Assembly (NCBI RefSeq): GCF_000816105.1
Contig: NZ_CP007140.1
Span: 1,576,388 to 1,640,387, forward strand
Source of the DNA: Thermococcus guaymasensis DSM 11113
GTDB lineage: Archaea > Methanobacteriota_B > Thermococci > Thermococcales > Thermococcaceae
Length of the DNA: 64,000 nt
Reading direction: 5' to 3'
Shown here: positions 27,783 to 31,962 of the stretch, piece after piece
How positions within the stretch are numbered: position 1 is the first letter of the stretch
How the letters are laid out: each line of letters opens with the position of its first letter
Made by a program: the position numbers and the translations under genes
The notes under the pieces: model-generated
The model's database searches: none
The model's input: the letters and a program-made list of their open reading frames with translations, nothing else
Told to the model about the DNA's origin: nothing

Positions 27783-29069
27783 ATGTTCCTCCACGTCGGA
27801 ATCGACGACACAGATTCGCCGAACGGCATGTGCACCACATACCTCGGCGCGCTCCTCTACCGCGAGCTGTCGAGGTTAGCGGAGCCTGTAGACCTGCCGA
27901 GGCTCATAAGGCTGAACCCGAACGTTCCCTACAAAACAAGGGGAAACGGAGCGGTGGCGATGACCTTCGAGGCCGACGAGGACATTATTCCAGATATTAA
28001 GAACACTGTCCTCTTCTACGTGAACCGGCTCGCGGACTTTACCCACGAGAACACGAACCCCGGAGTCGTCTTTTTCGAGGGTGAAATCCCCGAAGAGCTC
28101 CGCGAGTTCTCGCTTAAAGCCCTTCGGGAGCATGTAACCATCGAGGAGGCCGAAAAGGTCGCGAGAGAAGTCAGGGCGGAGTTCTTCAAGTTCAAGCTCG
28201 GCAGGGGAATAATCGGCGCGCTCGCCTCGATCGGCTACCCGCTGGAGCGCTTCACCTACGAATTGCTGGCCTATCGCGAGCCAGAGAACTGGGGAACGCC
28301 GAGAAAAGTTGACGCCGAGAGCGTGTTTTTAGCCGACAGGTGGAGCTACCCCTTCACCTACGACAACGTTGACCCCTACAAGCGGACGGTCTTAATAACA
28401 CCCCACGGCAAAGACCCCGTCCTCGTCGGCATCAGGGGGATTGACAGAGGGAAAGTCCTCCAGACCTTTGAGATGGTTCGCTTCGGCGAGCCCATCGCTT
28501 TTTACCAGCTCTACAAGACTAACCAGAACACCGACGACCACCTAACGCCCAAGAAAATCGGGGAGCTGAAGCTATACGACAGCGCTGTGGTAAGGGGAAG
28601 GGTCGCTGGCCCATACTGGGAGCGCGGGAGGCACGTTTTCTTCGAGCTTGAGGACGAGACTGGAAAGATACGTGTCGCGGCCTTCGAGCCTACGAAGAAG
28701 TTCAGGAACTACGTTAGGAAGCTTCTTCCAGGTGACGAGATAATCGCCGCTGGGGGCGTTAAGGAGCACGAAGGAGTCCTGACGCTCAACCTCGAAAAGT
28801 TCTACCCGGTGAAGCTCGTCCCCAAAATCGAGTATCAGAAGCCGAAGTGCCCGCGCTGTGGTGGGACGATGAAGAGCAAGGGCGACTACCTCAAGTGCAA
28901 GCGCTGTGGGCACAAGATGCCGAAACAGCTCATTCCCGTTGAAGTCCCGCGCGAACTGGAGAGGAAGATTTACGAGGTTCCACCGGATGCGAGAAAGCAC
29001 CTGTCGAGGCCGCTGGTGCTGCCGGGTGGAGAGGAAAGGATTTTGGGGGCACTGGAGGTTCTGAAATGA
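27783..29069 (+). CDS. tiaS: tRNA(Ile2) 2-agmatinylcytidine synthetase TiaS
   Basis: Makes agmatidine at C34 of the CAU-anticodon tRNA-Ile using agmatine and ATP, so that it reads AUA; essential in most archaea. The 428 residues show the N-terminal [15 protein letters not shown] kinase-like motif. An OB-fold domain lies around 285-345 ([20 protein letters not shown]), and the C-terminal zinc ribbon is [27 protein letters not shown] at 27783 is about 25 bases after the TATA box, so the mRNA is probably leaderless or nearly so. The stop lies inside an inverted repeat belonging to the next gene's promoter. Confidence 0.95.
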
Positions 29070-29089
29070 TAATCGCCGTTATGATAATC
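29066..29089 (-). repeat. Left copy of 24-bp inverted repeat at the AAA ATPase promoter
   Basis: The reverse complement of this segment matches 29130-29153 at 21 of 24 positions, sharing the core ATTATCATAACGG. It overlaps the last codons and stop of tiaS. Together the two copies bracket the presumed promoter at 29090-29129. Confidence 0.75.
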
Positions 29090-29129
29090 AAAATTCTCAC
29101 CCTGCCAAAAAGCTTAAAGTGATAACTGC

Positions 29130-29153
29130 AATTATCATAACGGTGGTTATCAT
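29130..29153 (+). repeat. Right copy of 24-bp inverted repeat, abutting the ATPase start codon
   Basis: Contains ATTATCATAACGG and GGTTATCAT, and ends at the base before the ATG at 29154. It covers the expected transcription start and the GGTGG ribosome site. An extra TGATAA half-site at 29120-29125 forms a palindrome with TTATCA (29132-29137). Likely a repressor or autoregulatory site. Confidence 0.75.
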
Positions 29154-30515
29154 ATGACCCATTTCGTGGACAGAGTGGAGGAGCTTAAAGCGATTAAAGA
29201 GAGACTTTCACGCGACGGGTTTGAGCTCATCGTCATCTACGGCAGGAGGCGAGTTGGTAAGACCCGCCTCGTCCTTGAGGCCATTAAAGAGTTTCCCCAC
29301 GTCTATTACCTCGCCGTTGAGGGGGACAACGTGAGGCACTTCAAGGAAACCGCCGAGAGGGTCTTCCCAGAGGTTAGGTACGCCCGCGAGGACTGGGAGG
29401 CGCTTCTCCACGCCCTCAGGGACAAAATCATCGTTATAGACGAGTTTCCGAACCTGATAAAGGAAGATCCCGGAGTCTTGAGCGTATTCCAGAGGACCAT
29501 TGACACTGACCTCTCAAGCTCAAACACGAAGCTCATTCTCCTCGGCTCCTCTGTGAGCATGATGACGGAGAAAGTCCTCAGCTATAAGAGCCCCCTCTAC
29601 GGCAGGAGAACTGGCTCCATGAAGCTCAAACCGTTGAAGTTCTTCCACCTCGGGGAGTTCTTTCCCCGCGCGAGCTGGGAGGAGCTTGTAGAGGTCTACG
29701 GTATGACCGATGGGATTCCGTTCTACATAGCTCAGGTCAGGCTTCCCTTCTGGGAGTGGCTTGATAAGGAGCTGAAGAACCCAGTGAGCTTCTTCCGCGA
29801 CGAGGTGGATTTCCTGCTGAGATACGAGTTCACGGAGACGAGGACGTACAGGAGGATACTTGAGGCGATAGCCCTCGGCAAAACGACGCCGAAGGAGATA
29901 AGGGACTTCACAGGCATGAGGCACTCGGAGATAACCCCATACCTCAGGAACTTAATCGAGACCGGGTTAGTAGTGAGGGAAGTTCCCATCACGGAAAAAC
30001 CAAACTCCAAGCTGGGCCGCTACTACGTTGCGGACAACTTTCTCGCCTTCTGGTTCCGCTTCGTTTACCCGAACCTCTCACTCATGGAGGAGGGCATATT
30101 TGACGTGAATGAGATACGAGGGGCATATAACCACTACCTTGGCCCAATTTTTGAGAAAATTGCAAGACAGTTCCTAATTGAGCTGAACCGGGCGGAAGAG
30201 CTGCCCTTCAAGTTCACAAAGGTTGGAAAATGGTGGAGGAAGGGAGAGGAAATTGACCTCGTGGCTTTGAACAAGCACGAGAAGAAGGTACTGTTCGCTG
30301 AAGTTAAGTGGAAGGAGTTGAGCGCGAGGGAAGCAAGAGGAGTTTTAAGAGACCTGGAGAGGAAAGCAGAGCTCGTTGGTTTAAAGGACTACGAGAAGAG
30401 CTACGGTCTTGTGGCAAAGAAGGTAAACGGGAAGGAAGCTTTGAGGGCCGAAGGCTGGCTGGTATGGGATTTAGAGGACTTCGAAAGGCTTATTTCTTTT
30501 GAGGGTGAAGTTTGA
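29154..30515 (+). CDS. AAA ATPase with C-terminal DUF234 nuclease-like domain
   Basis: A 453-residue archaeal ATPase. Walker A is GRRRVGKT (30-37) and Walker B IIVIDEF (92-98), with a sensor-like LLGSSVSMM. A winged-helix region follows at about 240-285 (TTPKEIRDFTGMRHSEITPY). The C-terminal domain has EIDLVALNKHEKKVLFAEVKWK, which carries the D...ExK spacing of PD-(D/E)XK nucleases. Such genes are abundant and variable in Thermococcales, and their role (defence, mobile-element related, or regulatory) is not settled. The start codon touches an inverted repeat, suggesting autoregulation. Confidence 0.9.
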   Translation: MTHFVDRVEELKAIKERLSRDGFELIVIYGRRRVGKTRLVLEAIKEFPHVYYLAVEGDNVRHFKETAERVFPEVRYAREDWEALLHALRDKIIVIDEFPNLIKEDPGVLSVFQRTIDTDLSSSNTKLILLGSSVSMMTEKVLSYKSPLYGRRTGSMKLKPLKFFHLGEFFPRASWEELVEVYGMTDGIPFYIAQVRLPFWEWLDKELKNPVSFFRDEVDFLLRYEFTETRTYRRILEAIALGKTTPKEIRDFTGMRHSEITPYLRNLIETGLVVREVPITEKPNSKLGRYYVADNFLAFWFRFVYPNLSLMEEGIFDVNEIRGAYNHYLGPIFEKIARQFLIELNRAEELPFKFTKVGKWWRKGEEIDLVALNKHEKKVLFAEVKWKELSAREARGVLRDLERKAELVGLKDYEKSYGLVAKKVNGKEALRAEGWLVWDLEDFERLISFEGEV

Positions 30516-30718: not shown

Positions 30719-31882
30719 TTAGCGGAGGTGGTAGAGGAACCCCGGAACCTCCGGGCCCTTCAGGACTCTAACGTCCCTCGGGTACCTCCCCCTTCTCTCC
30801 CTCGACTTCACCTCGACCTTCAGGGTTCCCGCTATCGCATCGACCTCGTAGGAGTTCCTGTAATAGTAAACCTCCCCAAGCTTCCTGTACAGGTGCTCCT
30901 GGACGAGCCACTCGTAGAGAACCGCTTTATCAATCCTCCTTCTCGTCCAGAGCTCCATGGCCCTCACGATGAGCGGGTCGCGGAGAATCAGCTTCCTTTC
31001 CTTCCGAGGGTAAACCTTCCCGTCGCCGCCGAGGTAGAGAACCTGCAGGAGGACGTGGAAGGCCTCGAAGAGCTCAACGTAATCCCTCGCGGTGTGGGGG
31101 GAGATTCCAACTGCCTTCGCTATCGCGTTGAAGGATGTAGGTGAGGGAGCCTTATCAAGTATCGCACCCATAACGTCCCTCGCAAGGTCGGTCGAGCGGT
31201 CTAAAGCTTTCAAGTCGGCCTTCAGGAAACCCACGAGCTCCTCGACTTTCAGCGTTCCGTTCAGGTATGCCAAGTACCCTCCGGTCTCAATGTAGTTCTC
31301 AAAGACCTCTTCCCCCTTTGAGGGAAAGAACTCGTCGTAGAAAAGGTTGTAGTAGTCGTGAAAACTCAGTGGCATGACCTCAATCGTTTTTCCGTTCCCC
31401 TTTCTGCCGCCGAAGGTCTCAAAATGCCTGCCTACCGTCAGGGAAATCGAGCCGGTCACCGTAACGACGTCTTTACTCAACTTTCCCCTGTCTATGAGGA
31501 ACTTCAGGGCGCGCCACCAGTCATCCACGAGGCTGACTTCGTCGAGGAATATAAAGGCCGTTTTAACGCTTTTTCGTCTCTTCAGCCTTAGGTACTCGTT
31601 TAGAACCTCCAAAAGCTCTTTGTAGTCCTCAAGCACGTCACAGCTGAAATAAAAAACGGCGTAGGGAGTGTGGACTTTCTTGAGGAGCTCTTTAATGAGA
31701 AGCTTTATTCCAAGGGTTTTCCCAACCCTTCTTGGGCCGACGACGAAGTTGAGAGAAAAAGGCTCCAATGAGAGCCCGTCGAGCCATTTCGGCCTGATTC
31801 TGTAGGTGAGCTTTTCAAAGAGCTCCCAGTCCCTGTCGGGTTCACCAATCCACCATGGGTTCTGTACCTCAAGCATGTGCAT
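30719..31882 (-). CDS. AAA ATPase with DUF4143-type C-terminal domain
   Basis: A 387-residue archaeal ATPase. Walker A is GPRRVGKT (49-56) and Walker B TAFIFLDEVSLV (about 108-119), with an arginine-finger/sensor region VTGSISLTVGRHFETFGGRKG. A winged helix follows (FNAIAKAVGISPHTARDYVELFE). The C-terminal domain keeps YEVDAIAGTLKVEVKS, the D...ExK pattern of PD-(D/E)XK nucleases. A TATA box on the minus strand (31895-31907) places the mRNA start near 31876-31882, so the message is likely leaderless. The second ATG at 31876 may be the real start. Three phased palindromes control the promoter region. Confidence 0.9.
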   Translation of the reverse strand: MHMLEVQNPWWIGEPDRDWELFEKLTYRIRPKWLDGLSLEPFSLNFVVGPRRVGKTLGIKLLIKELLKKVHTPYAVFYFSCDVLEDYKELLEVLNEYLRLKRRKSVKTAFIFLDEVSLVDDWWRALKFLIDRGKLSKDVVTVTGSISLTVGRHFETFGGRKGNGKTIEVMPLSFHDYYNLFYDEFFPSKGEEVFENYIETGGYLAYLNGTLKVEELVGFLKADLKALDRSTDLARDVMGAILDKAPSPTSFNAIAKAVGISPHTARDYVELFEAFHVLLQVLYLGGDGKVYPRKERKLILRDPLIVRAMELWTRRRIDKAVLYEWLVQEHLYRKLGEVYYYRNSYEVDAIAGTLKVEVKSRERRGRYPRDVRVLKGPEVPGFLYHLR

Positions 31883-31894
31883 TTATAGTGCAAA
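31876..31894. promoter_or_regulatory. 19-bp palindrome, site 1 of 3
   Basis: TGTGCA-N7-TGCAAA. It overlaps the start codon and predicted transcription start of the DUF4143-type ATPase gene. It shares arms and 7-base core length with two further sites 34 and 68 bp away. Confidence 0.75.
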
Positions 31895-31909
31895 GATATT
31901 TATAAAGAT

Positions 31910-31928
31910 TTTGCACTAGCACTACAAA
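31910..31928. promoter_or_regulatory. 19-bp palindrome, site 2 of 3
   Basis: TTTGCA-N7-TACAAA, just upstream of the TATA/BRE region of the ATPase gene. It lies exactly 34 bp from site 1 and 34 bp from site 3. Confidence 0.75.
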
Positions 31929-31943
31929 CAAATTTAAAAAGAG

Positions 31944-31962
31944 TTTGCAGTAGCGGTGCAAA
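31944..31962. promoter_or_regulatory. 19-bp palindrome, site 3 of 3
   Basis: TTTGCA-N7-TGCAAA with perfect 6-bp arms, the best copy of the three. It lies between the ATPase promoter and the 3' end of the kinase gene at 31991. Confidence 0.75.

Follow-up and report, generated by a model that had tools for sequence, protein, structure and literature searches.

A 64,000-nucleotide stretch of the Thermococcus guaymasensis DSM 11113 genome (the window) encodes an ATPase that very likely binds its own promoter via its winged helix and represses itself, with private operators being used family-wide, as judged from sequence comparison. The family to which it belongs very probably controls its own production, with nearly every copy having a private palindromic address that changes in step with the recognition helix. 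The window protein is a member of the AAA_14, winged-helix and DUF4143 (PD-(D/E)XK) family, i.e. the PADLOC defence candidate PDC-S01. PDC-S01 is reported to be the fourth commonest defence across prokaryotes, most such candidates still being without validation, and both PDC-S01 and PDC-S27 are described as an ATPase fused to PD-(D/E)XK (PMC12988326).

Phased palindromes at the ATPase promoter

The promoter region contains the following elements, listed in their order along the minus strand, where the three sites alternate with two spacers, the first holding a TATA-like stretch and the second the TATA box:

31944..31962, minus strand: candidate operator site 1 (distal), TTTGCA-N7-TGCAAA, TTTGCAGTAGCGGTGCAAA; from sequence, phased-pair score and retention in orthologues
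31929..31943, minus strand: spacer of 15 bp that separates sites 1 and 2 and holds a second TATA-like stretch (CTCTTTTTAAATTTG); from sequence and orthologues
31910..31928, minus strand: candidate operator site 2, TTTGTA-N7-TGCAAA, TTTGCACTAGCACTACAAA; from sequence and orthologues
31899..31906, minus strand: TATA box TTTATAAA, within the 15-bp spacer that separates sites 2 and 3; same place in orthologues
31876..31894, minus strand: candidate operator site 3, TTTGCA-N7-TGCACA, TGTGCATTTATAGTGCAAA; from sequence and orthologues

Each site is a 19-bp palindrome with six-base arms and a seven-base centre, and the three recur at a period of exactly 34 bp, an arrangement which a preceding sequence-only reading had described and which the coordinates confirm. 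The best phased pair at the locus scores 22 out of 24, compared with a mean of 15.8 and a maximum of 18 in dinucleotide shuffles of the same region, i.e. far above chance. Upstream of the TATA box, the inner arm of site 2 abuts the BRE and extends into it, and site 3 spans both the expected start of a leaderless, or near-leaderless, mRNA and the first start codon; the earlier placing of one site on the mRNA start and another just upstream of the TATA box was thus seen in both respects. Translation may in fact begin at the second ATG (31874–31876), given that CTG replaces the first in several orthologues.

With at most one mismatch, TTTGCA-N7-TGCAAA occurs at four places in the 1.92-Mb genome, comprising the three sites and one isolated, unphased copy. 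The check for random recurrence elsewhere in the genome thus left the motif private to this locus but for that single one-mismatch copy, and on this basis the regulon of a global transcription factor, with the motif present at many promoters, was rejected. The sequence-only reading had also placed the bound units on the same face of the DNA. This fails because, at 10.5 bp per turn, 34 bp corresponds to 3.24 helical turns, so the sites do not lie exactly on one face; the wrapped complex that it had suggested was not borne out.

Conservation of the sites in orthologues

Clade-A orthologues, at 75–95% identity, retain two or three of the sites. At least three kinds of neighbour lie upstream of them (glpK, a second gene family and VapBC-like remnants), such that conservation upstream of orthologues holds in differing gene neighbourhoods. 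When 41 genomes were surveyed with a 53-bp two-site pattern, allowing at most three mismatches, matches were found in 11, nine of which carry the ATPase at that place and constitute all nine clade-A genomes in the sample; the reversed pattern, used as a control, gave no matches in the 41 genomes. In the remaining two genomes with matches (G001 and G014), the ATPase has been lost and sites 1 and 2 are kept as a scar. These site pairs in genomes that lack the ATPase could reflect either recent loss or another binder. Both scars (L078:3920-4006 and L079:3957-4051), from which both ATPases are gone, lie between TiaS and a PIN-domain (VapC-like) gene, and retain TGATAA-type palindromes along with two TTTGCA-type sites.

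Across the orthologue loci we found no other gene that travels with the sites. A two-gene toxin-antitoxin operon was considered and rejected, there being no conserved linked small gene across these loci, as was the end repeat of a mobile element, with no matching array in the first 260 bp downstream of the gene and no linked transposase. In G009 (L075:8543-8716) the same operator array is located between the ATPase and a divergent gene, which may be co-regulated.

The ATPase and its predicted winged helix

The following features of the gene and its product are relevant to DNA recognition and to the proposed effector function:

30719..31882, minus strand: ATPase with AAA_14, winged helix and DUF4143, 387 amino acids (385 from the second ATG); from Pfam, PADLOC PDC-S01 and a model of pLDDT 91
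31715..31738, minus strand: Walker A motif GPRRVGKT, residues 49-56; invariant positions
31061..31132, minus strand: predicted helix-turn-helix, residues 251-274, with the recognition helix SPHTARDYVE; from the model, family alignment and specificity scan
30983..31051, minus strand: predicted wing, residues 278-300, with the second specificity-scan peak at 286-296; from the model and scan
30806..30847, minus strand: PD-(D/E)XK-type motif E-V-D...E-V-K, residues 346-359; from conserved columns and the PDC descriptions in PMC12988326

Both Pfam domains are detected above their cut-offs (PF13173, 74.9 bits against 27; PF13635, 34.1 bits against 28.1), and the protein matches the PADLOC PDC-S01 profiles with a best E value of 6e-29. 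In the family alignment GPxxVGKT, LDE, E346, D348 and K359 are invariant, and E357 is present in at least 90% of members. In the AlphaFold2 model, which is confident (pLDDT 91), the ATPase is separated from the PD-(D/E)XK-like domain by the helix-turn-helix (251–274) and the wing (278–300).

Sequence search found no solved homologues of the ATPase. The structural matches in VIA are with CED-4, NLRs and the archaeal proteins 2qen and SSO1545/2fna, with Z values of 15-16 across approximately 260-290 residues, and span the nucleotide-binding and winged-helix domains (CED-4, Z 16.1 over 284 residues, rmsd 5.2; 2qen, Z 15.3), i.e. the arrangement of nucleotide-binding, helical and winged-helix domains of STAND NTPases is present. 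The best Foldseek match is 2qby_B (Cdc6/Orc1 on origin DNA; E value 9e-9), for which the VIA Z value is 12.1; VIA thus ranks STAND NTPases above Cdc6/Orc1.

Shared geometry and differing operators across the family

Relatives of the ATPase differ in the sequence of their palindromes and agree in geometry. In the T. guaymasensis genome itself, the clade B paralogue (48% identity; C1:911672) has two TGAGAA-N7-TTCTCA sites at 34 bp around its TATA box, L082 has three TGCCAA-N6-TTGGCA sites at 33 bp, L083 has two TGGTAC-N8-GTACCA sites at 35 bp, and L084 has three TGCCAGTATGGTGGTA-like sites at 34 bp, all of which are upstream of the TATA box; two further AAA_14 members in this genome (L080 and L081) are without a clear phased pair. 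The spacing is also 34 bp for TTGATA-N6-TATCAA in clade C and for the TGTAAA-N7-TTTACA-like sites of clade D, and arrays of two to four phased sites occur in the family. In every member seen, the sites bracket or adjoin the TATA box or start of the gene's own promoter.

A scan of 43 non-redundant members, in which the period was left free between 20 and 60 bp, found a strong pair (score of at least 20) in 35, every one with a period of 32–35 bp (exactly 34 bp in 24 cases); the other eight fall below the threshold. Outside Thermococcus, a score of at least 20 with a period of 32–35 bp was obtained for 12 of 20 archaeal promoters of the family, compared with a background of 0.5%; the signal is weaker in bacteria (5/36, compared with 0.6%). 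As a promoter control, the window and 14 related loci supplied 225 upstream regions for scoring, a set smaller than a whole genome; all 12 that reach at least 21 belong to AAA_14/ATPase_2 ATPases, one of them via a divergent neighbour sharing the sites, and none of the other 213 is above 20. The possibility that the TATA box alone sets the 34-bp spacing was rejected, because L084 and the first L082 spacer keep 33–34 bp without a TATA box; since the L084 spacers hold none, the promoter alone does not fix the period.

Two groups of relatives have other types of upstream palindrome. The clade with an NRDT helix (L028-L031, L047, L048, L253 and L255) has GC-rich palindromes of the CTTGCCGAAC-N3-GTTCCGCAAG type at 35-bp spacing, together with two or more TATA-like boxes, its site boundaries being fuzzier than those of other clades. 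Bacterial relatives (L191, L167, L168, L152, L188 and L202) often have AAAGTC-NN-GACTTT-like upstream palindromes, some of which sit between phased palindromes 32 bp apart.

The adjacent ATPase in the window, at 29154-30515 on the plus strand (ATPase_2 and DUF234; PADLOC PDC-S27), has its own, different palindromes upstream (29067-29153), comprising TGATAA-N6-TTATCA at 29120-29137, an overlapping one that ends at the start codon, and a copy at 29067. In this genome, 8 of the 11 genes examined of the DUF234/ATPase_2 type have a perfect palindrome with 6-bp arms between -45 and +15 of the start, compared with 24 of 214 control genes; at these eight loci (L110, L112-L115, L117, L118 and L120) the sequence is gene-specific and the layout over the start codon is compact. 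There may thus be a parallel self-operator rule for PDC-S27.

Matching of recognition helix and operator

In the family alignment the recognition helix is constant inside clades and varies among them, and its core pairs with the operator arm across phyla. SPHT occurs with TTTGCA in Thermococcus and in Bathyarchaeota L140 (TTTGCATTTTTATTGCAAA), as well as in L138 (also with TTTGCA sites), SHKT-VF with TTGGTA in Thermococcaceae and Culexmicrobium L143, SHVT with TTGA(T/C)A in Thermococcaceae and Thermoproteota L148, and [ST]HPT with TGAAA in Thermococcus and the bacterium L145; SYKV occurs with TGAGAA. The cross-phylum pairing holds at 32–38% overall identity, and distant pairs in this range that share the same four-residue helix core have an operator similarity of 0.73, compared with 0.52 for other distant pairs. 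Agreement is also seen at loci retrieved once the pairing had been noticed, for SPHT (L222, L223 and L226–L230) and for SYKV (L237, L238, L239 and L256); the register of the scan is shifted at L239, whose promoter is identical to that of L134, where visual inspection shows TGAGAA sites at 34 bp.

We then scanned 377 nine-residue windows of the protein for correlation with operator similarity, with overall identity partialled out. The partial correlation, calculated over protein pairs that are not independent of each other, is strongest at residues 254–270 (the recognition helix) and next strongest at 286–296 (the wing). On permutation of the operators the observed peak was reached in 1 of 1000 cases, and removal of the SPHT clade leaves the peak standing. 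When redundancy is cut at 60%, its position is unchanged and it is reached by 507 of 1000 permutations, i.e. it is not significant, the test losing power because 17 proteins remain.

Proposed mechanism of self-repression

The earlier suggestion that the ATPase itself binds through its winged helix is strongly supported, at the level of sequence, by the private operator, its conservation in orthologues and its change with the recognition helix, and the indirect case for binding of its own operator by the ATPase is a strong one. We propose that the three palindromes act as operators for the ATPase encoded just downstream, each being bound via the winged-helix domain, probably by a dimer, with helix 261–270 reading the arm TTTGCA. 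Protein–protein contact would keep adjacent sites approximately 34 bp apart; the constancy of the spacing, together with the varied sequence, suggests contacts between adjacent bound units, and, because 34 bp is 3.24 turns, such contact would be a fixed screw relation rather than a same-face stack. The 34-bp period of L084, whose spacers are without a TATA box, makes cooperative or higher-order binding plausible. The bound complex would cover the BRE at site 2 and, at site 3, the start of transcription, thereby blocking basal factors and polymerase; because the sites cover these elements, their occupancy should repress. We infer repression, as the direction of control, from site position only, and likewise infer the dimer stoichiometry and release by a trigger.

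The pattern is general in the archaeal AAA_14/DUF4143 family, with a clade-specific arm matched to the recognition helix of the clade, so that paralogues in one cell would avoid cross-regulation. A likely purpose of the self-repression would be to hold down the level of an ATPase–nuclease that could do harm, until the winged helix is freed from DNA by a trigger or by nucleotide exchange; plausibly, activation may shift the winged helix off DNA, with expression rising as the effector is armed. We put forward tentatively, as a serious possibility rather than a probable one, that, in a STAND-like ATPase–nuclease, one winged helix serves as molecular switch and also as sequence-specific DNA reader, with every paralogue having its own operator at a fixed 34 bp, in a readable code against cross-talk. 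If true, a single protein, on being triggered to leave its promoter, would link sensing to derepression and to effector activity.

Alternative explanations

That the ATPase binds its own sites and activates, e.g. via the distal site and a second upstream promoter, is unlikely. The position of site 1 upstream of the BRE, the TATA-like stretch in the first spacer of most orthologues and the upstream location of all three L084 sites are consistent with activation, but one site lies on the start region in nearly all members, which is where repressing sites usually lie. Binding to palindromes beside the TATA box is common among archaeal regulators, and control of the ATPase by a separate host transcription factor would fit both this precedent and the retention of sites without the ATPase in G001 and G014. 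We consider such a factor very unlikely, however, given that the motif has no other target in the genome and that no other gene travels with the sites; moreover, the operator type tracks the ATPase's own helix across phyla, with the link localised to helix and wing, and approximately five private motifs in one genome would require equally many dedicated, unlinked factors.

The sites might instead be a platform for ATPase assembly, in an initiator-like or recombination role (cf. the origin boxes of Cdc6/Orc1, or a transposition regulator), with repression being incidental. The Foldseek match to Cdc6/Orc1 on origin DNA (2qby), the existence of phased arrays of two to four sites and the occurrence of the gene with its promoter block in differing neighbourhoods all point in this direction. 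Yet the sites always flank or adjoin the TATA box or start of the gene itself, the first 260 bp downstream contain no matching array, no transposase or replication gene is linked, and VIA favours STAND NTPases over Cdc6/Orc1, which together make a platform role highly improbable. The probability of chance or low-complexity sequence is negligible, this being refuted by conservation and by the controls (motif rarity, shuffles, the 41 genomes, the promoter controls and the 43-member scan).

Implications and comparison with known systems

Private self-operators, bound by the ATPases that they control, would provide a direct and cheap handle on PDC-S01, since the binding site of almost any member would be readable from its promoter. 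The putative DNA-reading residues are mapped, and derepression could be used as a reporter of PDC-S01 triggers. The results also bear on how the winged helix of the STAND/NLR type is related to DNA-binding ancestors such as Cdc6/Orc1. Operator autoregulation is a known kind of control; in the open-licence literature searched, we found no report of promoter operators or self-regulation in the AAA_14/DUF4143 family, nor the combination of private operators, a 32–35-bp geometry, a helix code and a regulator–effector fusion.

The window protein shares with PDC-S01 the AAA_14 ATPase with DUF4143/PD-(D/E)XK, and matches its PADLOC profiles. Its best structural matches in VIA are STAND/MNS NTPases (CED-4, Apaf-1, plant NLRs, 2qen and SSO1545/2fna). 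The winged-helix domain of most NLRs works as a switch within the protein, whereas that of the window ATPase appears, from its sequence, to read specific DNA sequences. DNA binding and bending have been described for the potato NLR Rx1 (PMC4599002). Cdc6/Orc1 initiators likewise combine AAA+ with a winged helix and bind repeated DNA sites, but here the sites, fully palindromic and different from one paralogue to the next, lie at the promoter of the gene itself, and the protein has a C-terminal nuclease fold. Defence autoregulators of a like kind are the C proteins of restriction-modification systems. CapK/CapS (PMC13373217), another defence autoregulator, likewise restrains a defence gene that could do harm, acting at that gene's own promoter. 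In both CapK/CapS and the C proteins the regulator is a separate protein, whereas here regulator, ATPase and putative nuclease are one polypeptide.
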